A DNA stretch of 64,000 bases from Macrocystis pyrifera (Eukaryota; Sar; Phaeophyceae; Laminariales; Laminariaceae): the NCBI GenBank assembly GCA_031763025.1, contig JASSKH010000007.1, positions 11,514,454-11,578,453 of the forward strand. The letters run 5' to 3'. A program made the position numbers and the translations under genes. The notes beneath the pieces are model-generated. The model did no database searches and was not told the DNA's origin. It saw nothing but the letters and a program-made list of their open reading frames with translations. Positions 1,327-53,092 of this stretch are shown piece by piece. Position 1 is the stretch's first letter. Each line of letters starts with the position of its first letter.

Positions 1327-1606
1327 GGAAGTGGCTACACCGGAAACTAAACTAACTCATTGAAGCTGTCATCCATATGCAAGTCCGCCTCACAAGCGGT
1401 TCTTAGTAGGATGCAGCTCACCCTTCATGCGACTCGCCGGACACCTCACGGCGCTTCGCGCTTGGTGCAAGCAATGTCTGCCTGGTCGGTGAAAACCCGA
1501 CATGCTCCGTCCCGGCATTGTAGGGATGCGAGGGTCTATGGTCATACGACTACGGCCACGCATGAGATCGAGTACATCCCTCCTATCGAGTACACCCCCC
1601 CCCCCC
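1327..1606 (+). mobile_element. Cn-SINE, 5'-truncated copy (S1)
   Basis: Reads ggaagtggctacaccgg .. to the SINE 3' end ..GAGTACACC-C(n). Flanked by a 20-22 bp duplication CCCCCCCCCTCCTCGCATTC at 1304-1325 and 1598-1619: the C-run itself is duplicated with its unique right neighbour. Confidence 0.75.
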
Positions 1607-3961: not shown

Positions 3962-4219
3962 TTACTGCACCATAGGAGCAACATCGACCGGCTGGCGCAC
4001 AACCACGTGCGCTTCAGGCAGGGTGTATACGGCAGGCACGTTATAGGCTCCTTGGCCAGGGACAGGGGGATTGGAACCGCCCACACAGTGGCCGGATTGG
4101 TAGCTGGATTGACGACTCACGGGGGCGGCAGGCCATTTACTGGATGGCGTCGGTCCACACTCGGACCACCCCGCTTGCCGACCGCTGTGCTTGCCCCAGG
4201 CAAACAGGTGACGAGCCAC
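3962..4219 (-). CDS. PLAC8 gene, last exon
   Basis: This 86-codon terminal exon follows an acceptor ending CGGCAG (4222-4220) and ends at TAA (3964-3962). It begins VARHLFAWGKHSG, which continues the second PLAC8 Cys cluster of the previous exon (CNCCVATQ) in phase 0; the Q-x-ARH continuation is typical of the family. The rest is a Pro/Ser/Gln-rich hydrophilic tail (APVSRQSSYQSG, PPVPGQGAYNVP) likely to be cytosolic. The downstream 3' flank (about 3700-3930) is a degenerate AACGAACG-type repeat and may be 3' UTR. Confidence 0.82.
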   Translation of the reverse strand: MARHLFAWGKHSGRQAGWSECGPTPSSKWPAAPVSRQSSYQSGHCVGGSNPPVPGQGAYNVPAVYTLPEAHVVVRQPVDVAPMVQ

Positions 4220-7200
4220 CTGCCGATTACGAATGCGAATGGTTGCGTTCTCTCGTAAGAACTTTTTGTTAACATTAAGAAATCGAGGCTCGTTTTCTCT
4301 GACTACAAACAAGAAATTTTGACCGAATAGACAAATGATGGATCTGGGTCGGGTGCCGTACTGAATGCTGCCGACACATAATAACAGGAAACAGTAGCCT
4401 GCGCTCATTCGTCAATGATGGCAACATAAGACGAACTCAATTTTAAGGCCTCGACGCCAGATGGACGTTTTTTTTTTGTTGTTGCTACAGCAGTTGCGCT
4501 TTGGGGATAAACTACGTACAGTAGGATTCGAGTGGTATGTCTCGGACCGCAGGCTTATAAAGGGTTAGGTAGCGGGCTCCTTCTGTATGCGTTTCGTTTC
4601 GCGCAGAACGGAACACACGTACGTGGTGGGTGGTGACCGAGAGCTTCTTCAACCGTTAAGGAAGACATGCGGCGCAACGCAAACCCTGCTCCGTCGTGCA
4701 TAATACTCATATATACATTATGTATATATGGTAGCACGCCACGTTCAGTACCGGCCCCCTAATAATAAGAAACAAGGATAGTTGCCCAGGCTGGGTTTCT
4801 TCTTTTGAGGAAGGGGGTGCTCCACACTAACTTCAATGTAACTTACTTGCCGGCGGTATTTCCTGTGAGAGAGCCGGCAGCGCATACTGTACTACACTAT
4901 TACATATTAATCGTGGCAGGAAGGGGAGTTGGGCGAGTTTTAGTTGACACCCTACTTACACCGTGGATCCTCCTCCTCCTCGCCGAATGGCGAGAATTTT
5001 CTCCCTCTCTCTCTATCCCCCCGTCCGTTTCACGCATACGAGACGAGGCGAAACAAGCGCGACAAGTTTAGGATCTCCAACTCCGATGAAGGTCCTTCAG
5101 CACGCTCGTGGGGGGAAGCGTGTTTACCCCAGCAGAGCGCGATGCGAAGTACACCGCAACTAATAAACAGATGTATATATATGTATATAATTCGCGGTCT
5201 GACATCCAAAGTTACACATAACAGATAATTAAAAAAGAACAGCTACTCGTACTGTGAAAATTCAGGTGGAAAAAGAGGAGGCCACGATTCTGGCGCGGAA
5301 CCGATCGCGCCAGTGGCCGTGAACGAGGACACACGCGGTAACTGATCTGTCCGCGTAAGGCATGATCCGCCCGCGCAAGGCATGATCTGTACCGTACAGG
5401 TATGGTGTGTCCTCCAGCGTTCTGTTTGTTTTACCTGGGTCGCCACGCAGCAGTTGCACCACAGAGACAGGCACCAGTTCTCGACCCGACTGAGCGGTAT
5501 GTCGTAGACCTCGGCGATTCTAGCGCGAGACACCGCCACAGCGTACGTGGCGAAAATTATCCACATCCACCCCTCGAATCCAAGCATGAGATCGAAAACG
5601 AAGACGGCGATGCTGACGTAGAACACACCTTTGAAGAGCCGGGCCCCCTCGGCCACCTTATGGGATTTTGGGTGGGGTGGGGTGGGGGGGGTGTACTCAT
5701 TATCATACATGGACGTAGTCGTATGATCATAGAGGTGGGGTGGGAAGGGGGGGGGGGGGGGGGGGGGGGGGGGTATTCATCTGTTGCTTGCCTTAGTCAT
5801 TTGACCATTGACCACGCATCCCTTTCGAGACGGAGCACCGTTCCTACTCCTAATAGAGACACCTCCAACAATTGGGCGCTCATTACGTTGTTTCCATAAA
5901 TTACATCGAAACTTTTTGCTAATCTTGTCCCCTTCCTGTTTGGCCTCCTGTGGCCACCATCTATCTCCTAGGATAGCGATCGTTTTCTCGCTGCTATTCA
6001 TTGTATCAAACTCCTCCATGTCACATTCGTCTATTTTCCTCATCTCCTCTTCCAACACATCCCGTTCCTGGGGCGTACTCATTTGTTGCTTGCCTTAGTC
6101 ATTTGACCATTGACCACGCACCCCTTCGAGACGGAGCACCGTTCCTACTCCTAACAGCCAACAATTGGGCGCTCATTACGTTGTTTCCATGTATTACATA
6201 GAGACTTTTTTGCTGTTCCTTATCATGCATGGCCGTAGTCGTATGACCATAGACCCTCGTGTCCCTATCATACCGGGACGGAGCACGTCGGGTTTTCACC
6301 GACCAGGCAGGCATTTGCTTGCACCAAACGCAAAGCGCCGTGAGGTGTTGGGCGAGTCGCATGCAGGGTGAGCTGCATCCTACTAAGAACCGCTTTTAAT
6401 GTGGACTATCTTGCATACGGGTAACAGAGTCAATGAATTGATTTATTTTCTGGTGTATGGCCACTTCCACAAACAGCAACGGGTTCAATACGTATCTGCC
6501 TCGTGGGTGCCTTACCATATACACACTACGTGATACGATCATCCCCCTTGTGCGGAGTTAAGATTCTCTCCGCACAAAAATGATCTACTAACCCGACCGC
6601 CAGCCGTGGTGACCGCCGGAAAAAAAAACACGGTACCCTGGTTATATACTGTAGCTCACGCATTGAGAGGCGTGTTTTACAGTACCGTGTCGCCAACCTA
6701 CGCCAATCCAACCTATATATATACCAGGTACCAGGTATATGGCATAGGGGGTGGGGAGGCAGAGAAGAAGCTCCTTCGCAAAAGCCTTGATGGGTACGTA
6801 GGCGTTTCGCTCTTGCTTCGCTTTTAGGGAACCGTCCGGCTAGCTCTCTGCACCTGTCCTGCACTCTGTCGGTCGCGAAGTAACCACTCTGTAGGCCAAG
6901 GCTTACAGAGGACACGACAGAACGCGCATCAACGAAACAACTTTTGTATCGACCAAAAATTTGACACCCTGGCGTCCATCAACACCAAGAGCATGCCTCC
7001 TGTGTCGTGCCTCCTTTGAGCCGTGCCCCGCACGGTATACTATACAGGGGTTGCCGTGTAGGGGCAATCGCACCTCTGAGCCCCAAAACGTTCACCACTG
7101 AAAAACCGGGGGTTCTCGACTCTTCAAAAAAACTATTACGGGGGACCATAGTAAATAGGACCTGCGGTACATACAAAATCCTATACATTTACCTATTTTT

Positions 7201-9078
7201 ACTAACAATATTTGGTCCTATTTACTATGGTCCCCCGTATTACCCACCGTATGTGGGGGTTCAATGTCAATTTTTTCTGAACACACGTAACACAGCCCAT
7301 GCGATCTGTGCATCAACCACATTTCTGCACAGACTGTCTACCCACTTGACTCACTTAAAATCCCTCTGGGACCCCTCGGTAGCGACCGAAACAATGGTTG
7401 GTCACCCGTTCAGGAACGGCGTGAGCGCCCCCCCCCCCAGCAGTACGTACCGGTGGCGTAGGATCATGATGCTTGCCCCCCCCCCCCCCCCCCCCGTCCC
7501 CCCGTGCCGCACGCCCCCTCGCACTGTAAAACTCGAACACACCTATTCGTGTCATCAATTGCCCAATCACGCAGCGGCCTTCATCTTATGCGTCCCTTAC
7601 ATTTTGTCCTCCGAAGCCCCAGGAGGGTTCCTCAGGAGGCCTGCGTACTGTACACACCCCAACCCAAAACCTGACTCTCTCGAGGACAACTGTGAAAGTG
7701 GGAGAAAAAAAAAAAACAAAAAAAAAAAACGGTGAACGATGCTATTCGCCAGAGACAAAACAGTGAAAAAACGCTAAAACTATATTCCAGCGGCAAGGCA
7801 TGCCTTGTTGGCGTAAAACATCCTCATTTTGAGGAGCCCACCCCCGCCGGTCAGAAATGTTTGCCTTATAGGGCAAAAAAGTACCACCCAAAAAACGACT
7901 AACAATGCTATGAATACCAGGTATTGCTGTAGTAAAAAAAACATAGTGCCAAAAACACAACTTGTGTTCCAGCGACAAGGCATGCCTTGTTGGCGTAGAA
8001 ATTCGTCAGGTGAGGAGCCCCCCCCCGTCCGGCAGAAATGTTTGCCTTGCAAGGCCAAAAGTGCCACCTCCGATATTTGCCTGATAAGGCGAAAAGTTCC
8101 ACCCCCGACTCGACTCATCCCGCGTTATTAGGGGCTGGCACTTTCTTTTTGGCCCCAATACTTTTCTGACCGTTTTTTTTTGGGCTCCTCGAACGTGAGC
8201 AACTACTAATACGGGAGTCCATAGTTAACAGGACCTATGGTAAACATAAAAACCTACATATTTACCTGTTTTTTCTAACAATATTTGGTCCTGTTAACTA
8301 TGGACCCCCGTGATACTGGTTTGATATGATAATTTAATTTACCAGGTAAGTAAGAGTACGTTCGTAGTATGTAGGAATACGCACCTAGCGTGTGGGGGTT
8401 TTGATCGGGTTGCTCGACCAAAGTTCTTTCCAAAGTCACGTTTTCGGGTTGAGATGTATCGAGCTCCTTCCTTCATGCGAGAGGAGCTCCTCATGTTACG
8501 GGGGCCCATAGTAAATAGGACCTACGATGCACACAAAACCTATATATTTCCCTATTGTTACTAACAATATTTGGTCCCATTTACTATGGCCCCCCCGTAA
8601 TAGTAAGGCAACGGCCCTACTGCTGTGGCGTGGCACGCGCGTCCTCAGGTCCTCCGAGGTTGTGTTCGTTTTTTGTTGGAAAACTCGGCTACTATTGGAG
8701 GCGTTCTGCGATGCAGGTTCACCTTAAGTTTTCTGAGGCTCCTCGCTTGACCTTAAGGAGCTCCACTCCACACCTTACCCGAAAAACTGACTTCAGCAAA
8801 AATCAGACTGCATCGCCATGAATAATCCCATGGCCCCAAGTATACAGTCACGTCTTTTTTTGTCGAAACAACGTTTGTCGTTCCGACGATTTTAGGTTAA
8901 GGAGTGCTGTCAATTCAGAAACCATTTCTTCAGCGAAAATGTGCTCCCTCTATCGTAAAAACGCATCATTATTGGTTGAGTGAGGCAATGTGCTAAAAAA
9001 AAAAAAAGAAAAGTGCTGCCTCCCTTGTACTCGTAGACGACGACGTCGCACCTTTCTGTCATAAAAACATTTTACTGT

Positions 9079-9129
<51 letters not shown>

Positions 9130-9436
9130 GGGGGTTCGTCGAGAGGAGGAGCTTTCTATGTAGGAACATCAACCACGGCAATCGACGCGCAAACAAAAAA
9201 AAAATCTTGTTTCTCTCATTTTTTTCAAAAACAATCGCCAAGCGTCCCCTGAGACATGAAATGCACGAGGCGTCAGAAGCACTCTCTGCTGCAATTGTTA
9301 TTACGGGGGTCCATAGTTAACGGGACCAATTTTTTTTTAGTAAAAGTAGGCAAATATATAGGTTTTTATGAACACCATAGGTCCTGTTAACTATGGACCC
9401 CCGTAATAGCATAACTATTAAGGCTCTAAAACTCCC

Positions 9437-9470
<34 letters not shown>

Positions 9471-10082
9471 GCCGACCAAAAAAAAACAATGACGGAAAAA
9501 AAAAAAAACAAACAACCCGAGCCAACGATACTGATGTCACTCGCAGGAGTGCCGCGATTGGTGTGCAGGCAGCAAACATCACCCGCCAGCCGGCTACGGG
9601 TTGTTCTTGTCTCAGTGACACGATGGAGAATCGCAGTTGGCAGCTGCGTGCACCCGTCCCCCTTTTTCAAGCCGGGGGTAAGTCAAAACGCCATTGCTTT
9701 CGGATGTTTTTGTGGCTGCTCGGCAGGTCTGCCCGAACGTTAGGGCCCACTCACCCCAGAGAGAGTCGTCGGCCCGCGGTTGACCGACAATACGCAGTGA
9801 AAGGTAACGCATCTGTGTCATTCTCAGATGGGTCCGCACTGGAGGGAGTGACACGCGCACCACGATGTCGAGCTTTTGGTTAGTGCCGAACCGCTCTCGT
9901 TCCAACGTGCAGGTGTGAGCGCGTGTCCAACGGACAAGCTTCGAAGTGCAGAGCTTGATACAATATGTACAGCCATACATACACGAATATATATATATAT
10001 ATATGGTTGGCATTGAGCAAGCAAGTTGGACACGGGTGATTGACTAAAATCAGCAGATAGATAGGTGCAGCTCGATACTACA

Positions 10083-10138
<56 letters not shown>

Positions 10139-11208
10139 TGGAGTTTACCTGGCCGATGGTGATACACGAGCAGAAACACGCTGTCACACACGATGGAATG
10201 TGCTCGAAGCAGTCGAAAACCCCCCCGTACTCCACCGACCACGAAGGGTTTCAGGGAAGTCCTCCTTCGGTATCTGAGAGTTTTCGAGAAACTCCTGCGA
10301 TGTGATTTGATCGGGCTTCAGACGTCCGGACACAGCCTTCCATGCCACGGTTGAGACATATTCGATACCGGGGTAAGGAAAGAGAGGAGGGGAGGGGGGG
10401 GAGGGGAGGGGAGGGGAGGGGGGGGGGGGCGACTTGTTTAATGCCTCGTTAAGCGATGTGCACGGTGTGTGCATTCTCGGGGGGCTGAGGTGTTAACCCC
10501 CGTGAAGCGAAAAAAAGAAGACGCGTGTCCGCGCAACCTCAGCTGTGGGGCGACTCTTTCGTGCCGCCCCAAACACGCACCAAGTAGTACCGTGCTCAAG
10601 CCGCGAATTAGCCTCAACGACAGTTTTTAGTTGTTGAGTGACAGCCGTGACGACGCTCTGATGCTCACTGGGTCATCGCTCGACCGTACATAGCCTGCGC
10701 GGGAGAATGACCCAGGGGGAACAATACCAAGAAATGCGTCGTCCCTCTAATTGCTACTTATTGTTCGTAAAAATCGAAAAAAATACACAGGTTTTTTTGT
10801 GATAGTTATGCGTCTCTAACCCCCGCTCGGGCCAAAAGGTATGAAGCCGGGGGGGTGAACCGAAGAGATATTTACCATGCCCTGTGCGCGTGTTTGTTTG
10901 CTCCTGCATTAGCGACACCGATACGTCCCCTCTCGACCCCCTGACTCAACTGCGGTCGAGGAAAAAGGGCACAGCTGCTACTACTGCAGTGCTTCACCAG
11001 GGGGGGGGGGGGGGGGGGGGGGGAGAGGGACGTACTCATTCGTTGCTTGCCTTAGGCATTTGACCCTTGACCACACACCCCTTTCGAGACGGAGCACCAG
11101 TTTTCTACTCCTGACAATAGAGACACCTTCAACAGTTGGGGCGCTCATCACCTTGTTTCCACATATTGCATGGAAACGAATACTAGTGTTATCCCCTCAT
11201 GCCATTCG

Positions 11209-11248
<40 letters not shown>

Positions 11249-13686
11249 TGGAACCGCGACTCTCTTGTTTTCGATATTCTGATGATGGAGTGGCGAATCA
11301 TATAAAACATATACATATATATTACATATATGCTGCGAGGCTAAAAGCTCTCACTACTACTGCACTGCCGTACACAAATCAGGAAGCCCGTCCACATCCA
11401 ACGGGATGAGCCTAACGAAACAAAGCGAACAAAGGGAACACACACGGAACACTGTTTACCCTTGAGTCCGAAACCCTGGGCCGTTATCGGCAAAAACGCC
11501 GCTGGTCTTGACGAGGCCGTCCGTCCTTTCAAAACGAAAAACCGGTCGCAGGGAGGGACCCGACGCATTTTCTCGAGCTAGATTGTTGTCCGAAACATGT
11601 GCGAGAGCATATATATATATATATATATATAGGTACTGCTGTTTCCACGCAAAACAAAAAAAAGGGCGGATTGTGGCAATAACACACGATAAATTGCTGG
11701 TCTCTGTATACCCCCCCCCCCCCTCGGGCTTCTGGTGTTGTTTTCATTCCAGGCCATTTTGCTGAAAATGAAAACTTCCAGCCAGTCAGTCAGACGGATA
11801 GTTCACTTCACGTCGGCGGCAGATGTTCGTTTTGCTTCTTGCGCCATTTATTTGATTTTTTCGTGCGTGCGTGCCGACGGCAGCAGTATTCGGATTAAAT
11901 TTGACGTTGGTTCCGCCTCTTCGTTTTTATTGTGATTTTTGTTGTTTTCTGTTTTTTCCTTCAGTACTGTTTTATTTATTTATTTTTTTGTTTTCATTTT
12001 TTTGCCTTCATTTTGTTCTCTTCATTTTAGGTCTCTTCATTTTTTTGTTCTTTTGAGGCGTTCTACGAGAGAGGTTCACCCTAATTTTTCTGAGGCTCCT
12101 CACTTGACCTTAAGGAGCTACATACCTCACCCAAAAACTGACTTGAGCAAAAAATCAAATTGCATCCCGATGAATAGGGGGGGGGGGGGGGGGGGGGGCG
12201 TCTTACTACCCATTGCTATCGTTACCGCTTTGCCATTCGACAACATCCAGCAGCATGGTGAGTTTCGACGTATAATCCCTCGAGCGGTAAACATCCCCAG
12301 AACTACCGCACCGCACCGCACCGCGCCGCGCCGCGCCGCGCCGAGCGTTGAGCTATGAAAGGAGTGCGATCGTTTTTTTTTTCATCCCTCGTTTTTTTTT
12401 TTTTTCGTACAACGTTAAAGAAGGGTGTTGAGCTCGACCATTTACATTTTCGGAAAGGCTCTCTCTCTCTCTCTCTCGGCCAGACCTTTCCGAAAACTCC
12501 TTTGTTTGGTGTTAGGCATCCTTTCCGAGCGCTAAAACAAAAAAAAAAAAACGAACGACCGCACCACCTGCTATGCGAACTCGACGCTTTTTTACGGTAA
12601 GAAGGAGTACTACTGCAGGTAACGTTTGTTTAGTTGTTCTTGTTTGTTTGTTTTCCTGTTATTACGGGGGACCATAGTAAATAGGACCTACGGTACACAC
12701 ACAAATCTATGTATTTAACTATTTTTACTAACAATATTTGGTCCTGTTTACTGTGGACCCCCGTAATAGTTTGTTTTCCTGTTTGTTTGTTTTTGTTGTT
12801 CCTGTGTTTGCCATCTGTCAACACGCACGAGTAGCATTCATGAGCTTCGAACGTTGAGCACTCACAAAAAATCAAAACTCCTGTTTTCTTTTTCCTTCAA
12901 ACTCAACTTTTTGAATACGGTTCCAGCTCAATTAGATCGCAGCGAGACGAGTCTGGAGCTGAAGTTTGTTGCTGTTGCTTCTCACCTCGTACGCTTGGGC
13001 GTAGAAGCGTTTTCTGTCATCGCCCGAAGGGAACGGTTGCGCCGTAACGACAGGTATCGCCTCGCCGCTTTCGGGATCGGCGCCCACGGATCCGGGGGCT
13101 TCCTTCTTGTCGATGAGAAGGCGGTTCTTCCGCGCCTGTGTGCAGAAAGACGAACCACCGGCGGCAAAATAAAACAACGCAAACAAAGAACGTTTACGGA
13201 GCAAACGCAGCCGAAGAAACCAAGACGTAAAACACATGTTGTTCCACGGAGCAAACGAAGCCGAAGAAATAAAAATGGGTAGAACAACAGGTTGTTCTGG
13301 AATGAAGTGAGGGGATGGGGGGAGGTGTACTCATTATCATGCATGGTCGCAGTCGTTTGACCATAGAATGAAGCGAGGGGAGGGGGGGGGGGGGGGGGGT
13401 ACTCATTTATTGCTTGCCTTAGTCATTTGACCATTGACCACGCATCCCTTTCGAGACGGAGCACCGTTCCTACTCCTAATAGAGACACCTCCAACAATTG
13501 GGCGCTCATTACGTTGTTTCCATAAATTACATAGAAACTTTTTGCTAATCTTATCCCCTTCCTGTTTGGCCTCCTGTGGCCACCATCTATCTCCTAGGAT
13601 AGCGATCGTTTTCTCGCTGCTATTCATTGTGTCAAACTCCTCCATGTCACATTCGTCTATTTTCCTCATCTCCTCTTCTAACATAT

Positions 13687-13722
<36 letters not shown>

Positions 13723-16700
13723 CGATTCTTACGAGCTGAAGCGCTCGAGGTTGAAAAAATATCGCACAAGGCCTCAGAGCCCTACGAGTACCCTCCGGGC
13801 CGCCCCTGAAAAAAAAAAGTGGCCGGGACATGTTTTACACCCTACGTAGACGCGTTCTACGATAAAGGCAACACATTTCCACCGAAGCGGTTTCTGAATG
13901 ACGGGGTTCCTTAACCCAAAATCGTCGGAAATGATGCCAATCTTATTTCGAAAAAAAGACGTAATTGTATACCTGGGCCTTGGGATTATTCATAGGGATG
14001 CAATCTGATTTTTGCTGAAGTCAGTTTTCGGGTAGAGGTGTGGAGCTCCTTAAGGTCAAGTGAGGAGCCTCAGAAAAATTCAGGATGAACCTGTATCGTA
14101 GAACGCCTCCGTAGTTTAGGTACTCTCTATCGTATGTGGAGTCGTTTCTATGCCGCCGCACACTACTGTAATTCATATCATAGGCGGACAAGCAGTATTC
14201 CAACCTGTCGTCTGCTGCGACCCCCAGGAGCCGGACCATGCCCGCATGTACGACGGCGCACGCGGGAAAAGAGGGGAGGGGCGGTGGGAATGACGGCTCC
14301 GAGTTTTGAAGCCAATCCAAACCGAACTGCAAGCTGCAGCACAACAAGTGTTTTGGCCCTCCACGGCGGCCCCTCTTCGTGAAGATTTTCAGTGCGACTC
14401 GATGCGGCTCAAGAGAGCTGGTTGCTTCCTGTCAACTATATAACCACGAAAACCACATCTACTAGCGGTTTTGCACAAGGGCATCGGTTCAATCTCGGGA
14501 AAAAAAGAAAAAAAAAAATGCTTCCCGCGCAAGCAGCGAGACTTGTGCGACGCCAACAGTATCGCACAAACTTAGAAATTGCCTTCGTTCTTAGAGATCC
14601 AGCCAGAGGAGACATAAAAACGCGTTTTGCTTTCAGGCTGGTTCGTCGAGGGGGAACACCTTTTGACCGCAGTCGCGGAGACAAAAAAAAAAAAACAACA
14701 CGCCCCCGAGATTGGCGTGATGGTCGGCGATGATTGACAAGCCAACACTTTCGAGACGACGAGATAGTCGGCGGGGCCGAACGAACGAACCAACCCTTTC
14801 GGTACTCGCGACCCGGCTGGTGATGCGAAACAGTGAGGCCTCTGACCTTTCTGGCCACCAAGCTGCTGGCGAGTATGGACGGTAGCGTGACGATGATCAA
14901 CCCCGGCGCCGCCCCCCCCGAGGAGTCCGCAGCAACCTGCTCGAAGGAGGTGGGTGGGAGAAGGGTGTATTCATGGTCACGCATGACCGCAGTTGTATGA
15001 CCATAGACCCTCGTGTCCCTACAATGCCCAGGCGGAGCACGTCGGGGGGGGGGGAAGAGACCAGGGCTATAATTAGGCGGCCAGTGGCCCCCCTCCAGGG
15101 GTCGCGGAGGGCGCCCCCGGGCGCCCGCCGGAGGCCCCCAGATTGCCAAAATTTGGACATGTAAGCCTAAACATACTCAAAACATGCATCACAAAAACAA
15201 AAAAGAAAACGCCTTCACGCGGGAGAAAAGGATCCCCAAAGCGTGTTCGCCAGCGTATACGGACAACACTTTTTCGTTTTGTTTCTGGGGCTGTGCGGCC
15301 CCCAAACACACAAAATAGGAGGGCAGCAAGCCAGCCAGCCGCACACTGTCTCCAGCGGATGGTGCGCTGAGAGGAATTCCGTTGCGCGAAGCGCTTGCCG
15401 CATCCCATTAAGACCTTCTGCCACATGTGGAAGGGGTGGGGGGGGGGGGGGGTGTACTCATTGTCATGCACGGTCGTATAGTCGTATGACCGTAGACCCT
15501 CGCATCCCTACAATGCCGGGACGGAGCACGTCGGGTTTTCACCGACCAGGCAGACATTCTCTTGCACCAAGCTTTGCGAAGCGCCGTGAGGTGTTGGGTG
15601 GGTCGCATGAAGGGTGAGTTGCATCCTACTAGAGAAAAACCGCTTGTGAGGCGGATTTTCTTGCATGCTATATAGGATGACAGCGTCAATGAATTGACTT
15701 ATTTTCTGGTGTGGCCACCTCCAGAGCCAGCAATGGGTTTACTACGTAAACTGCCTCGTGGGTGGAGGGGGGGGGGGGGGGGGGGGGGGGTGCAAGTTTT
15801 CACCAGAATCTCTCTTCATGAACTAAAAAAGAAATCTAGCAGGGGCAGGAAGAAGTAGTCCTCGGAACGGAGTTGTACGTATCTTCTTTCTCACGCGTGG
15901 TTTTGGGTTCGAGGGCCTGTTTGGCGAAGCCATGCCACCACAGGCATTTTATTTTCTTGTCTTGGAGGTGTGTGTACCAGGTGTGGTGTTCTTTCAGTCG
16001 GTACAAAATCTGTCCAATATCCTATTTTAACTTCGTTTCTTGGAAAGTTTTTCACCTCACTCTCACCACTACCGCTCCGGAATTCTTGGAGGAAAATTGT
16101 CCCGCGATCGACCGCGGGCTCTTTTTTTGTTTTGTTGTTTTGTTGTTTTGTTTTTGTGGAAAATGGGCCATTCGTACGAGAACAACAGCAGCAACAACAG
16201 ACAGGGTATGCCTCATTTCCTCACTGACTTGTATTACGGGGGGGACCATAGTTAATAGGACCAAATATTGATGGTAAAAACAGTTAAATATATAGGTTTT
16301 TATGTGTACCATAGGTCCTATTAACTATGGACCCCCGCAATAGCACGTTTTTGGCCTTTTTTAGTTTTTTTTTTTTTGTCATTCGAGACAGGTGGAGCTC
16401 CTCCCCGAGGCCGGGAGAAAAACTACTCAGTAAGGCGTGCCTTATCGTTTGCTTGCACAGCATTCTTCGGCATAGATAGACCTCGTCGGGTTAACCCTTT
16501 TAGTACAGCAGTCCCGTTTTGGGGACAAATCACTTGGAATTAGACTGGTTTGTCCCCAAATCGAGACTGCGGTCCTGATCGGGTCCAGGAGACCGTTTTA
16601 GGGCAAACTGCAGTCCCGTTTCGAGGAAAAACGTCAAGTGTAAGGCAGTATTGGACCTAGGGACCGACTACTGCTAGCAGGTTGATGCCTTTGGCTCTGC

Positions 16701-19700
16701 TCTGGTCACTCGCACGAGGTGCTTGACGATGTTAAGAGGTTATAAGCTCTTGTATTAGTTGCTGTTTTGACCTCGCCGGATGTCTTCTGAACGAAGGGAC
16801 GAAGCGCTCTATCAGAAAAGCAGGCGATAGCGCCTGCCAGGTATGATGAGGGGACGATTGCTACAAACCATAATGCCGCAACAGAGGAGAGGGGATATCA
16901 TAACACTAACCCACCCTGAAGGGCCGTATATGCAGATTCATAGAAACCTCAGGCACGAACCAAACCGATCCGGAGAATTCGGAGAATGGATCGAAGATGC
17001 GGCACTTCACAACCGACTCCCACACCTCCAACTCGCGAGGCTGTAGCCGATTACACGTGGACACTGAAACAACTCAAAATTCTAAGTAGTTCGTGTCCAA
17101 GTTGGGACTGCAGTTTTCAGAAAAATTTAGGCGCACCCCCCTGTCGTGGCCCCTTTTCTACTTAAGGCCACGTGACGTCGCCCCATTTTTCTCAGGTTCC
17201 TTGGCAATAAAATAAGCTATTACGGGGGTCCATAGTAAATAGGACCAAATATCGTCAGTAAAAATAGGTAAATATATATGTTTTTATGTATACCATAGGT
17301 CCTATTAACTATGGACCCCGGTCCATAGTAAGTAGGACCAAATATTGTCAGTAAAAATAGGTAAATGTATAGGTTGTTATGTATACCATAGGTCCTATTA
17401 ACTATGGACCCCCGTAATATATGCGTACACATCCTTACGCTTCAGGCCCAAAAACGTTTTTTTTTTTTTTTTTTTCAAGAAACAAATACGTATATATACG
17501 TACACGTGCAACCAGATGAAAACAGCGACAACCATGTAATTACGTACCTGGTATATAGTAGTATTGCGTTTGGCGTCCTCGACAATGTGCGGCCCGAGCT
17601 TCAACGTTGATCACTCAGAAACATTCCCCGAAAGGAGAAGAAAGTGGGGAAAAAAAATATGTTGTGATAAACCAAAAAATGGGGTTTGCCAATGTACCAA
17701 GGCTGTTGCGCGGTTCCCTCTATCGAGGTGGGTCGACCAGAAACACACGTGCCTTGCGAGCAACCCCCCCTCCCCTGCCCCGGGGGGGCTGGCTCTGTGC
17801 GGTACCGCGACATGTTTGCGCGCTGTCGCGATTACTCTGTATTTTTTATCATCACACACCCACCGGGTGTTTCGGAGAGGGTAGCGGTGGTCTCACCTTG
17901 CCAAAGGCGTGCATGACCCTCGGCCATCATCCACTGGAAGCCAGTCTTCTTTTGCGCGGTGACCCCGGAACATAGCCCCAGACAGCTCCTGAAGGAAAGC
18001 GAACTGCCTTGGTAAAGTCTGCAGGTACATGTATATTATTGTTATATATAACAATATATATGCCGTCACACAAGCACGAGAAGGGAGGAAACGTGGGAGT
18101 GAGTGCTTGTTTTCAATCAGAACAGTAACTATTAATAGTGCCGGTATAGTATACAGGGGTACAGAGCACTTTTTGTCCAAAATATATTTGTGGCTTACTG
18201 TTATTTACGGGGGGGGGGGGGCATAGCAAATGGGACCAAATTTTGTCAGTAAAAATAGGGATATATATAGGTTTTTGTGTGTACCGCAGGTCCTGCTTAC
18301 TATGGCCCTCCGCAATAGCTATATCCCTCATCTGCAAGGAAACACCCAATACGGCATGACCCTTACGAGGCATGCCTGATCGCTGGGATAGGTATACTTG
18401 TATACATATATATACATCATTATCATTTTTTTTTTCTTGCACCATTTGCTTTCGGCATATACACCTACCGCAGCTTCTCATGATGGCGGTCGTTGTTCGC
18501 TTCTTTCACTTTTTCCCAATACAAGGTCGGGGTTTGGGTGGAGCTTCCCGCGGGAGAAAGAAGCCTTAGAAGAAAGTATCGGGCCTACCCGACGCTCGGG
18601 TGCTTTGCCTCACAGGGACAGCATCTATAGCTTTTGGTCCGAGGCTCCTCCTCGTCTTGAGAGGCCCTGTACTCCCCCCCACCCAAAACCCGATTGTGAT
18701 GAAAGCCAAAAACGCAACCCGATGACAAATATATACCAGGTAGTCCCAAAGCCTACTTTAATAGTAGGTATATGCATCTCGAAAACTAGTAGTGCCGAAC
18801 AATAACGGCATTCGAACGATGCTGGATTGGGTCAAGGAGTCCGGTCAGTCCCAGTGACAGTTTGGCCGAAAAGTGCTATAAACACCCTACCCCCTATCGT
18901 AGAACGCCTCCCTCCTGTTGTAGAACCCTTAGGAAACGTTCGGCGTCTATGGTCAAGTACAAACCGTACACGCGTACACACCCGGGGGGATCGAGACGAA
19001 CAAAAGATACAAAAATTTTACCGTATATTCGGCGAGGCGGGCAGATCTGTGCGCTATATAAACTGACTGACTAGCAACGGCCCTAAATATCACGTGGGTC
19101 GAATCTAACGGAACGGAAAAGCTTGCGAAAACGCGTCGAAACGAGGCGAAAGGCGCTTCATCTATACGCTCACTGTGTAATCCACGAATTGTCGCGCGTT
19201 TCTAGCGTGAATTCGTATACGCACGGAATGGAAGGCGTGCGAAAATGCGTCTGAAATGAGGGAGCAACCGTAGATGCGTGGGGAGCGAGCTTGACCGTTT
19301 CGAGACTGCAGCAGTCCGCTTGGAGAACAGCCCACTCAAATTCTAAGTAGTCTGTCCCCAAGACGGGACTGTGGTTCTAAGAGGGTCACGTTATTTTTCT
19401 TTACTTTACCAGTCCGCCGGAGGATGAAAAAAAAAAAAAAAAAAAAACAAAACAAACAAAATATGGCATATATCCACGAAATCAGCACGCGTGTGTCTGT
19501 CTCCTTTTCGATCCCTTCGATCGGGGGCGGGGACCCGAACCCATCACAACAGACCTGAACAACGAAAACAGCAGCCCGCAGAATGGCAAGGCGTAGGCCA
19601 GCGCCTCGTCCGCCACGCAATATTCGGACATGTCGAAGCACGCGCAGACCGAGCTGAAACAGCTCTTGGCGTGCCCTAGGCCTTCTTCCGCTCCACCCGC

Positions 19701-20292
19701 GAAATTATCGGTTGTGTCTGCCGCCTGGGCGATGATGGATGTCACAGCGAGCCGGTAGTAATTAGGGAAGGGGGAAGGAGGGGCTGGGGGGGGGGGAGGA
19801 GACGTACTCATTGGTTGCTTGCCTTAATCATTTGATCATTGACCACGCATCCCTTTCGAGACGGAGGGGAGGGGGGGGGGGGGGGGGGGGGGGGGGGTAC
19901 CTGCCTATTGCTGTTCAGAAAGCATTCTACTATTAATAATGCTTTCCTCTCGGCTTCCTACGGGAAGGCCATAGCAATTTTAACCCACGATGAACCCCAG
20001 CAAAACATATTATATTGTTAAGAATATTAGTCATTTTTTCACTACTAATGAACCATGTTTGGTTATGTGGCTGACTATAACCATGTTCAGATATGATTAC
20101 TACGTTTCACGTTTGTTTTCGTTACGATTACTATTCATACTGTAATATTATATAATGAGTTTCGACGAGCTCACAGCTGCTGTTTTTTAATTTTATAAAG
20201 AATAACACGTGCTCGGACCTTGCGATCAACGTATACCTACCTGATATTGGGTTCACGCCACACAATTTTACGCCTTTTTTAGTATGTATGCG

Positions 20293-20323
<31 letters not shown>

Positions 20324-22572
20324 CTTCCCGCCTCACGACGATTTCGTCAAAGCCGCTCTCCATATGGCTAGACCACCACTCAACGAATAAAATCACCCAC
20401 CACAAAAAAGCCTACCTGCACGCTACGAACTCGCATTTGTACGCATTGACGTACGCGTGTTTGATGGGTGTGGCGGCTTATATCGTGCTAGCGTTCGCTG
20501 TATTGCACCCCACGTGCTGCTTCATCTCCTCCTTAACCCTTTTTATGCTGCACTGCACACAAACATATATCTGGCTCTAATTCCAAGTAATAGCACCCCA
20601 AATTCCCCCGGAACGGAACTGCAGTCTTAAAAGCGCTATAACCCCTTCAGGAATGCGCTGCCGTTTGTGGCGACGGATCGGTTGGAAGGAGACTCAGCTA
20701 TACGTGCATGCTGTCAAGGCCAGCAAGCATCTCCTTTTTTTTATTTGTGTGGGCGGTTTAAAACGTTTTCTCCTGTTGAAAAAAGATGACGTGCCGCTGT
20801 CAACCAAAAGGGAACTTTCCCTCCCCCCCCCCCCCCCCCCCCCCCCCCCCGCCCCCTCCAAACGAGCCCTTGACCGCATACCGGTAGTTGAGAAATGATT
20901 AGGCGTATGGCTCGGTACCTGCTGCTGCTACTGAGAGGTGTCGAGAGACATGTCAAGCAAGGGGAGTTCGTGCGCCGCCAAGGGCACATATAGGGCCGAG
21001 TGTTCCACACTAAAACAGAGTAGTTTTGGTGTTCAGTAAAGTCAAAATATAAACGATATTCGCTGTTTGTCAAGGGGGGAGAAATTATGTCTCCCTGACA
21101 CATTTGGCTCGCACGGGTTGCTCCTTACGTTTCTACAACCGTCATCTTATCGATTTGACGAGCTCACCTGCCTTGCGTTCTCGACGTTTTCGCTAGCTCC
21201 GTTGCTACAGAAGCAGCGGCAGCAGGTACGCCCGATGCATTCGTACATGGGCACCGCGCATTCCTCCGCGACACACTTCACAGGCGTCTCGAGGCAGGTA
21301 CCGTCGATGCACCTGTCGCGGTAGAAAACGCAGAGACAGCAAGGGGGGGGGGGTGTATTCATCGTCGCGCATGACCGTAGTCGCGTCGCGAGTATAGAAC
21401 GCAAGAGACAGTAGAGAGGGGCGGGTGCATGAGGGGGGGGGTTGCATTCATTGACACGTGTGACCGCTGACCCTCGCATCCCTATATACAATGCTGGGGC
21501 GGCCAATGAGAATTCCCATCGGTTTGTCAAAAGAGGCTAAAAAGCCCCCATCAGTTTGGCCAAAAAGGCTGCAAGCCTCATCAATTTTTGATCAGAAAGG
21601 TGAAGAAGACTCATCGGTTTTGCCAAAAATGCTGGATACGCCTCATGTCAGCTTGGCTAAAAAGGCAGAGAAGCCCCCCAGCAGTTTGGCCAAAAAGGCT
21701 GAGAGAAGCCACATCGGATTGGCCAAAAAGGCCGAGAAACCCCTCTCAGTTTGGTCCAAAAGTCTGACAAGCCCCAGCAGGCTGGCCGAAAAGACTGGCT
21801 GAGAAGCCTCCCATCAGTCTGGACAAAAAGGCTCAGAAGCCCCCATCAGTTTGGCCCAAAAGGATGAGAAGCCCCATCAGTTTGGCCGAAAAGGCTTAGA
21901 AGCCCCATATCAGTTTGGCCAAAAAGGCTGAGAAGCCCCATCGATTTGGCCGAAAAGGCTGAGAACCCCCATCGGTTTGGCCAAAAAGGCCGAGAGAAGT
22001 CCTATCAGTGTGGCCAAAAAAGGCTGAGAAACGCCACATCAGTTCGGCCAAAAAAGCTGAGAAGCCCCATCAGTTTGGCCAAAAAAGGTTGAGAAGCCCC
22101 CCATCAGTCTGGCCGAAAAGGCCGAGAAGCTCCATCAGATTGATAAAAAAAAGCTAAGAGGCCCCCCATCACTTTGACCGAAAAGGCCGAGAAGCCCCGG
22201 CAATTATTAGACCGAAAAGGGTTTTTTTTACTTATATCCTATTACGGGGGGACCATAGTAAACAGGACCAAATATTGCTAAGAAAAAAAAAGCGAAATAT
22301 CTAGTTTTTCTGTGTGTGTGCCGTAGGTCTTGTTTACCATGGTCCCCCGTAATAACACGCGTCCACAATGTCATACGTACTTACTCGTGGTATTCGTGAC
22401 CCTCAGCGATGTTCGTGGCGGTCGCGTTTCCCATCGCGTTCGTGGCCTCCTCCGTCACCTCCGCGATCGCGGGATCCCCCGCAATGTCCTGCACGCCCGC
22501 GTCCACTTGACTGGTGGTCAAACCGCTGAGTTCTGCAGAGGCTTGGAAAGTCTCCGCCCCCGTCTCAACGGC
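3962..22572 (-). CDS. PLAC8-family Cys-rich membrane protein, multi-exon host gene (overall span)
   Basis: The C-terminal part is a PLAC8 (DUF614) domain. It has a FDCF..C..CFC.CITIGQ motif followed directly across an intron by VAEGA, two hydrophobic segments, RARIAEVYDIPLS, and a second Cys cluster CNCCVATQ followed by VARHL. These match the family's CPC..FGQ.AE and C.CC...Q..RH positions. Family members are small membrane-associated proteins linked to metal homeostasis, cell size or channel activity; the substrate here is unknown. Upstream exons add an Ala/Glu/Thr-rich segment, a nine-Cys segment and a hydrophobic stretch. Phases agree from 22572 down to 12986, which favours one long gene, but two adjacent genes cannot be excluded. 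The start codon was not found and lies above 22572. The stop is TAA at 3964-3962. Introns carry MITEs, SINEs and LINE tails. Exon 10370-10149 has a G-run that breaks its frame, so the gene is either mis-assembled there or damaged. Confidence 0.72.
5435..5656 (-). CDS. PLAC8 gene, penultimate exon (membrane segments and second Cys cluster)
   Basis: The exon is exactly 74 codons, phase 0 on both sides. The acceptor is CCCATAAG and the donor is CAG/GTAAAA (5434-5429). It starts VAEGARLFKG, completing the GQ-VAE signature begun in the upstream exon. Two hydrophobic segments follow (GVFYVSIAVFVFDLML and GWMWIIFATYAVAV), then RARIAEVYDIPLS, the YGIP-like family motif, then the Cys cluster WCLSLWCNCCVATQ. 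The pyrimidine tract of its acceptor carries a truncated SINE whose 3' end is only about 30 nt away. Confidence 0.85.
5687..5731 (-). mobile_element. Cn-SINE 3' fragment (S2)
   Basis: The last about 45 bp of the SINE. GGTGGGGTGGG occurs on both sides (target duplication). Its C-tail forms the pyrimidine tract before the 5656 exon acceptor, about 30 nt away. Confidence 0.7.
5774..6069 (-). mobile_element. Cn-LINE 3' fragment (L1)
   Basis: Matches the last about 95 codons of the LINE ORF (ERDVLEEEMRKIDECDMEEF .. GCVVNGQMTKASNR) and its 3' end, followed on the sense strand by a 30-base C-run. It lies in the PLAC8 intron 5657-10148, on the gene strand. Confidence 0.8.
6073..6215 (-). mobile_element. 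Cn-LINE 3' fragment (L2), fused to a SINE
   Basis: A second, shorter LINE tail directly upstream (sense) of L1's neighbourhood. Its 5' end is joined without a C-run to the SINE at 6216-6745, which lacks its own terminal GAGTAC. Confidence 0.72.
6216..6745 (-). mobile_element. Cn-SINE, near full-length copy (S3)
   Basis: About 530 bp and colinear with the copy at 25339-25854. The 5' part carries an AT-rich ACCTGGTATATATATAGG-like head and a hairpin (TGTGCGG..CCGCACA, about 6560-6590). No tRNA A/B boxes were recognised. The 3' end is replaced by a LINE tail. Confidence 0.68.
7134..7242 (+). mobile_element. MITE-A copy
   Basis: Both arms carry the AGTAAATAGG variant. In the PLAC8 intron 5657-10148. 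Confidence 0.75.
7778..8105. repeat. Two-copy tandem repeat
   Basis: A block with CAAGGCATGCCTTGTTGGCG, GAGGAGCCC and CAGAAATGTTTGCCTT occurs at about 7790-7890 and 7972-8060. Confidence 0.7.
8207..8315 (+). mobile_element. MITE-A copy
   Basis: Both arms carry the AGTTAACAGG variant. Confidence 0.74.
8495..8603 (+). mobile_element. MITE-A copy
   Basis: TTACGGGGGCCCATAG..CTATGGCCCCCCCGTAA arms. Both share the same change beside the CCATAG core. Confidence 0.74.
8697..8962 (+). mobile_element. MITE-B copy
   Basis: About 265 bp. Termini GGCGTTCTRCGATR / CTATCGTAAAAACGC form inverted repeats. Inner landmarks are TTTTCTGAGGCTCCTCGCTT, AAAACTGACTTCAGCAA and CCAAGTATACA. Confidence 0.7.
9079..9128. 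repeat. Uninterrupted G-run, about 50 bases
   Basis: A (G)50 homopolymer followed by TGGGGG, with no adjacent LINE/SINE tail. In the PLAC8 intron. Confidence 0.9.
9299..9408 (-). mobile_element. MITE-A copy
   Basis: Both arms carry the AGTTAAC variant. TA flanks. Confidence 0.75.
10083..10137. repeat. Uninterrupted G-run, about 55 bases, beside a splice donor
   Basis: On the gene strand a C-run starting about 11 nt downstream of the donor of exon 10149-10370. Confidence 0.9.
10149..10370 (-). CDS. PLAC8 gene exon with first Cys cluster; frame conflict at a G-run
   Basis: The upstream part reads GIEYVSTVAWKAVSGRLKP..ENSQIPKEDFPETLRGRWST and the downstream part reads VFDCFEHIPSCVTACFCSCITIGQ, ending at a strong donor CAG/GTAAAC (10148-10143). 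The two parts lie in different frames, separated by a 7-G run (10217-10211 region). With five G the canonical WSTG-VFDCF of the family would be read, so this is a homopolymer assembly error or a real lesion. The 5' edge is uncertain: the region before GTATCG is a long C/T tract (10371-10430) with no AG, so either the acceptor is non-canonical or the tract is altered. The donor is followed almost at once by a 55-base C-run on the gene strand. Confidence 0.75.
10381..10430. repeat. GGGGA/G-run tract at a predicted acceptor
   Basis: C/T-only tract on the gene strand directly before exon 10149-10370, with no AG. Confidence 0.8.
11031..11209 (-). mobile_element. Cn-LINE 3' fragment (L4)
   Basis: LINE tail with the GTACTCAT(rev) terminus, flanked by G-runs on both sides (10999-11023 and 11210-11247, plus strand), as expected if the homopolymer is part of the target duplication. 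Confidence 0.75.
11460..11525 (-). CDS. PLAC8 gene, candidate exon
   Basis: The acceptor TTTTTCGTTTTGAAAG is followed by 66 bp, ending at AAGG/GTAAAC. The protein-like frame is TDGLVKTSGVFADNGPGFRTQ. It needs two incoming bases and leaves two, so it does not join directly to the exon at 12986-13135, which ends in phase 0. A small exon is probably missing between them; one weak candidate lies near 12.2-12.3 kb. Confidence 0.45.
12058..12176 (+). mobile_element. MITE-B, left half only
   Basis: Runs from GCGTTCTACGAGAGAGG to CCGATGAATA, then is replaced by a G-run (12177-12198). Confidence 0.68.
12660..12768 (+). mobile_element. MITE-A copy
   Basis: Inserted in a TTTGTTTG-rich stretch. TA flanks. 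Confidence 0.75.
12986..13135 (-). CDS. PLAC8 gene, candidate exon
   Basis: A 150-bp exon between acceptor TTTCTGCACACAG and donor GAG/GTGAGA, phase 0 to phase 0. It encodes 50 residues beginning ARKNRLLIDKKEAPG and ending DDRKRFYAQAYE, hydrophilic and with GC-rich third positions, unlike the AT/homopolymer-rich flanks. No domain is recognised. Confidence 0.6.
13198..13296 (-). CDS. PLAC8 gene, possible exon
   Basis: A 99-bp stretch between acceptor TCACTTCATTCCAG and donor TCC/GTAAAC, phase 0 to phase 0, fitting between the exons at 13733-13805 and 12986-13135. It encodes 33 mostly hydrophobic residues (NNLLFYPFLFLRLRLL..). It contains a short internal direct repeat, so it could be repeat-derived. 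A SINE 3' end sits 28 nt upstream of the acceptor. Confidence 0.35.
13325..13366 (-). mobile_element. Cn-SINE 3' fragment (S4)
   Basis: About 40 bp of SINE 3' end. Target duplication AATGAAGTGAGGGGA / AATGAAGCGAGGGGA at 13301-13315 and 13367-13381. The 3' end lies 28 nt from a predicted acceptor. Confidence 0.7.
13399..13687 (-). mobile_element. Cn-LINE 3' fragment (L3)
   Basis: Nearly identical to L1 over its length, truncated within the same codon region, and flanked on both sides by G-runs (13382-13399; 13688-13722). It lies in a PLAC8 intron, on the gene strand. Confidence 0.8.
13733..13805 (-). CDS. PLAC8 gene, candidate exon
   Basis: The acceptor is a T-run ending TTTCAG, the donor is CTC/GTAAGA, and the length is 73 bp. 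With two incoming bases it reads GGPEGTRRALRPCAIFFQPRALQL and ends in phase 0. The donor is followed within 5 nt by a 35-base C-run (gene strand) that is the 5' flank of a truncated LINE. Confidence 0.42.
13848..14112 (-). mobile_element. MITE-B copy
   Basis: Full-length inverted copy with both GCGTTCTACGATA-type termini. In a PLAC8 intron. Confidence 0.72.
14205..14326 (-). CDS. PLAC8 gene, weak candidate exon
   Basis: A 122-bp frame after acceptor GCTTGCAG, phase 0 in and two bases out, which suits its neighbours. It reads FGLDWLQNSEPSFPPPLPSF..HAGMVRLLGVAADD. The donor GTTGGA is poor and part of the frame is a pyrimidine tract, so the true acceptor may lie inside it. Confidence 0.28.
14847..14936 (-). 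CDS. PLAC8 gene, candidate exon with hydrophobic segment
   Basis: A 90-bp exon, phase 0 to 0, acceptor CCTCCTTCGAGCAG and donor AAG/GTCAGA. It encodes 30 residues with a hydrophobic core APGLIIVTLPSILASSLV, a possible membrane segment. A SINE fragment ends 28 nt upstream of the acceptor. Confidence 0.5.
14965..15043 (-). mobile_element. Cn-SINE 3' fragment (S5)
   Basis: Truncated SINE tail with a G-run on its 5' side (15043-15052) and GGGAGAAGGG on its 3' side. It ends 28 nt upstream of the acceptor at 14937. Confidence 0.68.
15347..15417 (-). CDS. PLAC8 gene, candidate exon
   Basis: The acceptor CACATGTGGCAG follows a C-rich tract that is the 3' tail and target duplication of a SINE. The exon is 71 bp, takes one incoming base and ends in phase 0, fitting both neighbours. 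It reads EGLNGMRQALRATEFLSAHH. The donor ACA/GTGTGC is weak. Confidence 0.42.
15453..15763 (-). mobile_element. Cn-SINE, 5'-truncated copy (S6)
   Basis: About 310 bp. GTGGA(A)GGGG..G(n) flanks both ends (15426-15450 and 15761-15790). The 3' end is 35 nt upstream of the predicted acceptor at 15418. Confidence 0.75.
16232..16342 (-). mobile_element. MITE-A copy
   Basis: Arms AGTTAATAGG / CCTATTAACT. Confidence 0.74.
16491..16583. mobile_element. piggyBac-like MITE (pB)
   Basis: TTAACCCTTTTAGTACAGCA opens the element. Inner arms GTTTTGGGGACAAA / TTTGTCCCCAAA are inverted. TTAA plus CCC is the piggyBac signature. A second half copy follows to about 16660. Confidence 0.5.
17218..17420 (-). mobile_element. 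MITE-A head-to-tail dimer
   Basis: Two copies in the same orientation joined at GGACCCCGGTCC, sharing a fused terminus with no intervening TA. Confidence 0.76.
17897..17988 (-). CDS. PLAC8 gene, candidate exon
   Basis: A strong acceptor (GCTTTCCTTCAG) and strong donor (AAG/GTGAGA) flank 92 bp. With the two bases left by the upstream exon it reads SCLGLCSGVTAQKKTG followed by FQWMMAEGHARLWQ, leaving one base as the next exon needs. No family is recognised for this segment alone. Confidence 0.58.
18203..18317 (-). mobile_element. MITE-A copy, diverged
   Basis: Expanded G-run at the left terminus and substitutions in both arms. Confidence 0.66.
19555..19724 (-). CDS. PLAC8 gene, candidate Cys-containing exon
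   Basis: A 170-bp exon, phase 0 in and two bases out, between CATCATCGCCCAG and CAG/GTCTGT. It encodes AADTTDNFAGGAEEGLGHAK, then CFSSVCACFDMSEYCVADE, then a hydrophobic end ALAYALPFCGLLFSLF. The composition is clearly protein-like. A LINE tail with its C-run lies about 78 nt upstream of the acceptor. Confidence 0.62.
19803..19866 (-). mobile_element. Cn-LINE 3' fragment (L5), very short
   Basis: Only the last about 60 bp of the LINE remain, between G-runs at 19784-19797 and 19867-19897. The 3' end is about 78 nt upstream of the exon acceptor at 19725. Confidence 0.72.
20292..20323. repeat. C-run
   Basis: (C)30 with no recognisable element next to it. Confidence 0.85.
20533..20640. mobile_element. 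piggyBac-like MITE (pB)
   Basis: TTAACCCTTTTTATGCTGCA at the left, AACTGCAGTCTTAAAAGCG at the right. Confidence 0.42.
20822..20855. repeat. C-run
   Basis: (C)28 followed by GCCCCC, with no adjacent element. Confidence 0.85.
21168..21312 (-). CDS. PLAC8 gene, candidate nine-Cys exon
   Basis: The acceptor TTTTCTACCGCGACAG and donor CAG/GTGAGC enclose 145 bp. It takes two incoming bases, as the 22385-22572 exon leaves, and ends in phase 0, as the next exon needs. It encodes CIDGTCLETPVKCVAEEC, then AVPMYECIGRTCCRCFCSNG, then ASENVENARQ: nine cysteines in about 33 residues. This could be a disulphide-rich or metal-binding segment (inference). A SINE fragment ends 40 nt upstream of the acceptor. 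Confidence 0.65.
21353..21397 (-). mobile_element. Cn-SINE 3' fragment (S7)
   Basis: About 45 bp, with target duplication GAAAACGCAGAGACAGCAAG / TAGAACGCAAGAGACAGTAG on the two sides. The 3' end is 40 nt from the acceptor of the nine-Cys exon. Confidence 0.7.
21441..21502 (-). mobile_element. Cn-SINE 3' fragment (S8)
   Basis: A more diverged SINE tail directly upstream (sense) of S7, next to a short G-run (21433-21440), so the same tract was hit twice. Confidence 0.55.
21530..22215. repeat. Minisatellite, about 33-bp unit, roughly 20 units
   Basis: Unit like CATCAGTTTGGCCAAAAAGG + CTGAGAAGCCCC. The first third is open on the plus strand (repeated LAKKAEKP) but the frame is lost later, so it is treated as non-coding. 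Confidence 0.85.
22240..22354 (-). mobile_element. MITE-A copy
   Basis: Arms AGTAAACAGG / CTTGTTTACC. It ends 31 bp before the PLAC8 exon at 22385. Confidence 0.74.
22385..22572 (-). CDS. PLAC8 gene, most upstream well-supported exon
   Basis: 188 bp between an acceptor ending ATCGCAG and a near-perfect donor GA/GTAAGTACG. It encodes an Ala/Glu/Thr-rich acidic segment (AVETGAETFQASAELSGL .. EVTEEATNAMGNATATNIAE). It leaves two bases, matching the nine-Cys exon. An in-frame ATG lies just before the acceptor, so an unspliced start here is possible but less likely. Confidence 0.58.
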
Positions 22573-22919: not shown

Positions 22920-23359
22920 CCTTGTGACTCAATTCCTATATATTGGCGGGCGCGATCACAGCATTCATTCATATGCCGTAAGGATGCGGGCTTTCTATCG
23001 CACGGAGGTGCGATCGTTTCTATCAGAAAACGGGAAGGCTGCTGCCATTATACCGAACAAGGTGTGTGTTTTCGGAAAAATCCGATCGGAAGAGAGAGAG
23101 AGAGAGAGAGAGAGAGCCCCCCGGAAAGATAGCGCTCGACGATTGTATAGCAGCCTTCCCGTTCACTATCGAGAAAACGAGAGAGCGCTGGAAACCGACC
23201 ACACTCCTGCACGATAAAACTCGCATCGTTACGGTGTTTGTCGTGACGCCGGTGGGTACTTCCTTGACAATGCCGTAGGGATTTATTTCATTTTTGAGCC
23301 CAAGTAATTCTCACCGCCGGGGGGGGGGGGAGGTGGGAGGTGGAGTGGGGTAGGGGGGG

Positions 23360-23512
23360 TACTTATATGTTGCTCGACTCAGTCATTCGACCGTTGACTA
23401 CGCATCCTTTTCGAGACGGAGCGCCGTCCCTGCTTCTATGTAATAGAGACACGTCGAACAGTTGGGGCGCTCAGTACATTGTTTCCACATTCTACATAAA
23501 AAAAACTTTTTT
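23360..23512 (-). mobile_element. Cn-LINE 3' fragment (L6)
   Basis: LINE tail beside a G-rich tract (23323-23359) and, on its 5' side, a GGA microsatellite (23513-23590). Confidence 0.68.
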
Positions 23513-25854: not shown

Positions 25855-25866
25855 GCCCCCCCCCCA

Positions 25867-28525: not shown

Positions 28526-28530
28526 TCAAC

Positions 28531-53076: not shown

Positions 53077-53092
53077 GAACAGGGAGGGGGGG

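Follow-up and report, generated by a model that had tools for sequence, protein, structure and literature searches.

A LINE and a SINE-like element, both directed to runs of C, probably use both ends of introns in the giant kelp Macrocystis pyrifera, with the 3' end of the element turned toward the exon. The evidence comes from the window, i.e., the whole 64,000-nucleotide stretch of DNA that was analysed, and from a sample of loci outside it. That the 3' end faces an exon, at either intron end, is held with moderate confidence to be better supported than a niche confined to splice acceptors, as had been proposed in a sequence-only reading of the window.

Most of the elements in question lie in one gene on the minus strand. 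Its joined exons encode a 376-residue protein, for which six homologs were found, some of them labelled Ectocarpus, Laminaria digitata, and Undaria. PF04749, which we take to be PLAC8, is present in three of these homologs. Judged by these homologs, the PLAC8-family gene that the sequence-only reading had placed on this strand is genuine. The exon model was corrected by tblastn of the six homologs on the window, except that exon e1 was set from frame, splice sites, and alignment. The exons are as follows, in the direction of transcription.

28526..29269, minus strand: possible N-terminal exon region, a proline-rich ORF, with a weak match of the Undaria homolog at 28644-28537 (E 3.6)
27035..27128, minus strand: probable upstream exon, with a weak Ectocarpus match at 27130-27020 (E 5.4) and edges read from the sequence
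22385..22572, minus strand: exon e1, from frame, splice sites, and alignment
21168..21312, minus strand: exon e2, tblastn E 6e-13; SINE C-run 30 nt from the acceptor
19555..19724, minus strand: exon e3, tblastn E 8e-27; LINE C-run 61 nt from the acceptor
17897..18018, minus strand: exon e4, tblastn 18020-17895; acceptor with no adjoining element
14847..14936, minus strand: exon e5, tblastn 14937-14917 and 14915-14841; acceptor 26 nt from the 3' CCC of a SINE (first CCC of a broken tract)
12986..13135, minus strand: exon e6, alignment and tblastn; acceptor 13135 in place of the claimed 13296
10149..10336, minus strand: exon e7, tblastn
5435..5656, minus strand: exon e8, tblastn E 1e-23 (P0001) and 2e-38 (P0004); SINE C-run 27 nt from the acceptor
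3962..4222, minus strand: C-terminal exon, tblastn 4222-4070; frame open to the stop at 3962

For exon e4, a boundary at 17988 was replaced by 18018 on the tblastn match. The two weak upstream matches fit the gene in order and strand, and the exon at 27035..27128 resembles the Undaria N-terminus by eye. By this weak homology, the gene probably reaches about 29 kb. Frame breaks were found in two homolog-supported exons, i.e., at a G8 run in e5 (14912-14919) and at G-runs in e7 (approximately 10220-10241, with one run at approximately 10220-10226). The assembly comprises 537,376,219 bases in 223 contigs, and the published giant kelp assembly is described as 537 Mb in 35 scaffolds and 188 contigs, built from PacBio reads with Canu and polished with Racon (PMC10498591). 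Because a Canu assembly of PacBio reads polished in this way may plausibly carry homopolymer errors, the frame breaks at G-runs are likely assembly indels. Possibly, they mark a degrading gene.

The LINE and the SINE-like element have approximately their last 70 bases in common, with an alignment score of 61.5 against a maximum of 30 in 500 single-base shuffles. This 3' end terminates in ATGAGTAC plus a C-run. Its exact 18-base form, ATGAGTACACCCCCCCCC, occurs at least 2,856 times genome-wide (1434 and 1422 on the two strands), whereas the reversed control occurs 1 and 0 times. The short element thus shares its 3' end with a partner LINE, as a SINE does, and the LINE carries a reverse transcriptase of the non-LTR type. 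Of the five pieces of the LINE copy in the window, two matched RVT_1 with scores under the curated cut-off, and two close relatives, P0007 and P0008, matched it with scores over the cut-off; P0007 also matches R2 and LINE-1 structures. No endonuclease family was matched in the window LINE pieces or in a 655-aa relative, the latter seemingly incomplete at its N-terminus. For one full-length SINE copy, an Rfam search to E 1 found no family, and a tRNA scan was likewise unproductive.

Copies in the window were catalogued by BLAST with three queries. The reading of 13 LINE/SINE copies on the minus strand was borne out, 12 being listed by BLAST and the fragment 21354-21395 being read by eye. They lie between approximately 5.69 and 23.49 kb and form eight clusters, listed below with three further features.

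5684..6515, minus strand: cluster of a SINE fragment (5692-5733), LINE tails (5773-6067 and 6073-6195), and a SINE (6217-6515); BLAST
11031..11167, minus strand: LINE tail, mid-intron; BLAST
13326..13687, minus strand: cluster of a SINE fragment and a LINE tail, approximately 190 nt from the supported acceptor; BLAST
14966..15046, minus strand: SINE 3' fragment adjoining the e5 acceptor; BLAST
15453..15765, minus strand: SINE S6, mid-intron, with a C-run at each end (15438-15452 and 15767-15790); BLAST
19803..19866, minus strand: LINE tail adjoining the e3 acceptor; BLAST
21343..21502, minus strand: two SINE 3' fragments adjoining the e2 acceptor; BLAST, 21354-21395 by eye
23359..23487, minus strand: LINE tail upstream of e1; BLAST
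25561..25935, plus strand: antisense SINE cluster, copies 25561-25855 and 25876-25935; BLAST
50668..53082, minus strand: degenerate LINE copy with reverse-transcriptase pieces and 33 stops in one frame
1304..1606, plus strand: SINE with a C-run plus TCCTCGCATTC at both ends, i.e., a target-site duplication

Many element 3' ends in the window are flanked by C-runs. In the set of 102 element clusters, window included, a C-tract stands at the 3' side of 80, at the 5' side of 77, and on both sides of 66, which supports the targeting of C-runs claimed earlier. Later copies would have landed at the C-runs of earlier copies, giving the clusters. The further claim, that the C-run is duplicated together with downstream bases, stands at a few sites (1304-1314/1595-1606 and 13326/13399) and did not emerge as a clear general rule. 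In the cluster at 13326..13687, TCCCCTC[AG]CTTCATTC follows each of the two C-tracts. Among 103 real pairs, a duplication score of at least 9 was reached by 12 vs 4.8% of shuffled pairings, and at least 10 by 5 vs 2.7%; at the high end, the figures were 2/103 vs 1.7% at a score of 11 and 0/103 vs 1.4% at 12. Duplication beyond the C-run is weak overall and clear at a few sites.

The starting observation was that SINE 3' ends lie just upstream of five acceptors in this gene, and it was partly confirmed. The acceptors at 5656, 14936, and 21312 agree with the proteins of relatives, as does the one at 19724 near a LINE tail, so element ends do lie near genuine acceptors. The acceptors at 13296 and 15417 disagree. 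Relatives begin the exon of the former at approximately 13135, so the SINE end lies approximately 190 nt upstream. At 15417, an exon derived from S6 had been predicted; relatives P0001-P0003 pass from ..ARLWQG (exon ending 17897) straight into CCGLLGAAPGLIIV (exon starting 14936). The rejected exon had fitted the frame only as a result of the frame break that the G8 run (14912-14919) introduces into the exon after it. In all, an element end lies within 45 nt of three of ten homology-supported acceptors (21312, 14936, and 5656) and 61 nt from a fourth (19724), with 27128 among the ten weakly supported. Two others, 27128 and 10336, have C-runs but no element: a C8 run (27133-27140) stands 4 nt before the former, and a C-rich tract (10381-10429) approximately 45-90 nt before the latter. 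No introner-like structure was found at the four supported acceptors with elements, where the exon begins 26-61 nt past the C-tract, outside the element.

It had also been stated that every copy within the gene shares its strand. This is probably false. The plus-strand cluster at 25561-25935 is flanked by the weak exon at 27035 and by e1 at 22572, and it is probably inside the gene because homolog N-termini match upstream of it (27130-27020 and 28644-28537). In the gene so extended, eight clusters are sense and one is antisense (two-sided sign test, 0.039).

The sample outside the window consisted of 20 stretches of 10 kb, two of which adjoin the window, and 30 loci found by similarity to SINE S6; one of these loci was excluded because it belongs to the window. 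Exons were predicted, without RNA-seq, by a codon model self-trained on the PLAC8 exons with homopolymers masked. At 12 bits, it called 133 segments as coding in the 360 kb that include the window, and exons of histone H3, SNF2 helicase, and kinase genes were recognized by eye among its top segments. The library used for clustering was free of C-runs, so bare C-runs were not counted as elements. Loci L014 and L015, which have identical flanks, were collapsed in segment calling and kept separate in the 102-cluster set; neither is an exon-edge case.

Outside the window, 14 of 65 clusters had a predicted exon no more than 90 nt from the 3' end, i.e., six sense elements before acceptors and eight antisense elements after donors, against 1 of 62 at the same distance from the 5' end (Fisher p 5e-4). 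The 14 cases are spread over 12 of 36 loci; the single exon of L003 enters twice, once from each side, and the case at L010 is doubtful. A locus bootstrap put the 95% range of the 3'-minus-5' difference at 0.09-0.31. At random points, the exon-edge rate was 2.2% for sense and 2.1% for antisense. This sample thus supports a greater-than-chance association of the elements with intron ends. The kinase case is visible from coordinates alone, with the exon at C223:3867119-3867343 and the element starting from 3867379. At L003 (approximately 1048-2005, oriented), the predicted exon stands between two C-tailed clusters whose 3' ends point inward, sense upstream and antisense downstream.

The base composition of intron ends that carry no element has a matching polarity. 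Upstream of element-free predicted exon edges, runs of at least 8 were C in 8 of 86 and G in 2 of 86; downstream, they were G in 9 of 85 and C in 1 of 85. If an element must find a C-run on its own strand, it would therefore be expected in sense orientation upstream of acceptors and in antisense orientation downstream of donors, in both cases with the 3' end toward the exon. Element-free C-runs themselves had an exon near the 3' side in 11 of 94 and near the 5' side in 4 of 94, a weak asymmetry (bootstrap P 0.088), and two lyase-family exons adjoining such runs matched Pfam. Homopolymers of G or C of 28-55 nt without a recognised element were also seen in the window at 9079-9128, 10083-10137, 20293-20322, and 20823-20850; possibly they are relics or empty targets.

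Splice-like motifs were counted genome-wide 3' of GAGTACVCCCCC, with near as 20-80 nt and far as 250-310 nt for ACTYACC, and a first-order composition prediction was made from 71 flanks. The antisense donor ACTYACC occurred 245 times near vs 131 far, a ratio of 1.87, where composition alone predicts 2.05. The reversed control CCAYTCA, which overlaps the donor motif in places, occurred 240 times near, with a prediction of 1.12 times ACTYACC. For the acceptor-like TNCAGG, the counts were 1105 near vs 1377 far, a ratio of 0.80 where 0.84 is predicted. The single clear departure from composition was a shortage of the sense donor GGTRAGT, with 58 near, approximately half of the prediction relative to ACTYACC. 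These counts are low in power, GGTRAGT being matched by none of seven homolog-supported donors. With this low power and the confounding by base composition, they did not confirm the exon-edge association, and they gave no sign of a sharp acceptor peak at 20-45 nt.

In the proposed mechanism, the LINE and the SINE-like element with its common 3' end would insert into C-runs. Target-primed reverse transcription may be used, with the terminal C-run of the RNA pairing with the nicked G-run strand, and the strand that carries the Cs would set the orientation of the element. At intron 3' ends, a pyrimidine tract that is C-rich in the sense of the gene would receive sense elements. Past donors, the intron would be G-rich and its C-run would lie on the opposite strand, giving antisense elements. 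If the C-run is duplicated, in places together with a few more bases, a pyrimidine tract or a G-run would be left at the exon, so splicing would probably be tolerated; we infer both preserved splicing and lengthening of the intron. The full form of this proposal is tentative and falls somewhat short of probable. It holds that both ends of kelp introns are docking sites for C-tailed LINEs and SINEs, that pairing of C-tail and G-run sets orientation, and that duplication restores the tract next to the splice site, so that introns grow from their ends with splice signals kept.

The model offered by the sequence-only reading was a niche at acceptors, on the strand of the gene only, at 20-45 nt. 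The three homolog-supported acceptors in the PLAC8 gene and the six sense cases elsewhere agree with it, so the interpretation is partly supported. However, it is too narrow. The eight antisense cases on the donor side already contradict its strand rule in the sample, where cases at donors are no rarer than those at acceptors, and the probable antisense cluster in the PLAC8 gene and the two unsupported acceptors among the five claimed weigh against it further. As a complete account, this model is very improbable. A placement without any real preference is more plausible than that and still unlikely. The elements are very frequent, and their C-rich flanks could raise the coding score and fall close to GC-rich exons; proximity would then come from composition and gene density. 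The motif counts, which track composition, favour this, and so do dinucleotide-shuffled flanks, which gave a mean of 3.1 of 60 cases at the 3' side vs 0.9 at the 5' side, the latter against 1/62 observed. However, 13 cases were observed at the 3' side, where 20 rounds of shuffling gave at most 6. The excess also remains at a cut of 20 bits, with four sense and six antisense of 65 at the 3' end vs 0 of 62 at the 5' end. Moreover, four of the 11 exon-edge exons submitted to Pfam, out of 13 distinct ones, were matched, i.e., SNF2 and PDZ on the sense side and kinase and COG6 on the antisense side, with kinase and PDZ scores under the curated cut-offs; the other seven had no Pfam match.

Selection in place of targeting is a rather remote explanation, less probable than the absence of preference. 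It supposes insertion at any C-run, followed by removal where the 5' end near an exon disturbs splicing. The rarity of 5' ends near exons (1/62) is also expected under it. However, the C/G polarity is already present at element-free intron ends, and selection alone leaves the excess over random points without an explanation. The use of C-runs at both intron ends, with the 3' end toward the exon, remains the preferred reading.

In stringent recognition, LINE/SINE pairs are mobilised via a common 3' end. The kelp pair resembles such pairs in its common 3' terminal sequence, 5' truncation, simple-repeat tail, and LINE reverse transcriptase. Unlike them, both its tail and its target are C-runs, and the full-length SINE copy searched falls in no Rfam family. 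It is also similar to sequence-specific non-LTR retrotransposons, i.e., R2 and others, in that DNA sequence sets the targeting, whereas the kelp target is a C-run at host intron ends and not a dedicated multicopy gene or repeat.

In Ectocarpus, RTE-X, RTE, and CRE LINEs, abundant LINE-dependent non-autonomous short elements, and a high intronic TE content have been described (PMC12477816). The likeness lies in a brown alga with abundant LINE-dependent short elements and much TE content in introns; the portion of that account covered here, however, describes no C-run targeting or exon-edge placement (PMC12477816). In human and mouse, SINEs are reported to be depleted in the 100 bp next to exons, and retrotransposons to be fewer near acceptors than near donors (PMC3088655). 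Mammalian intronic TEs share with the kelp elements a distribution set relative to exon edges, with biases of orientation and splice site (PMC3088655). The kelp elements differ in an apparent enrichment close to exon edges, where human and mouse SINEs are depleted. Among the matches listed in a literature search, no title or abstract opening dealt with C-run-targeted kelp retroelements, which is not proof of absence. If the proposal is true, it describes the reverse of the mammalian exclusion zone at exon edges. A family that accumulates at exon edges, oriented by C/G polarity, would tie transposon targeting to splice-site composition, and such accumulation would provide a way in which the long introns of brown algae could arise.

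Other features were seen in the window by eye. A short element that recurs often and has palindromic ends (TATTACGGGGG..CCATAGT ... ACTATGG..CCCCCGTAATA) is apparently MITE-like; its sites include 121-200, 300-540, 7137-7240, 8206-8320, and 12660-12770, among others. A PLAC8 intron holds, at 21530-22220, a degenerate tandem array with a unit of approximately 35 nt resembling AAGCCCCATCAGTTTGGCCAAAAAGGCTGAG. On the minus strand at 56700-60300, a long run of adjoining ORFs looks like a decayed retroelement polyprotein.
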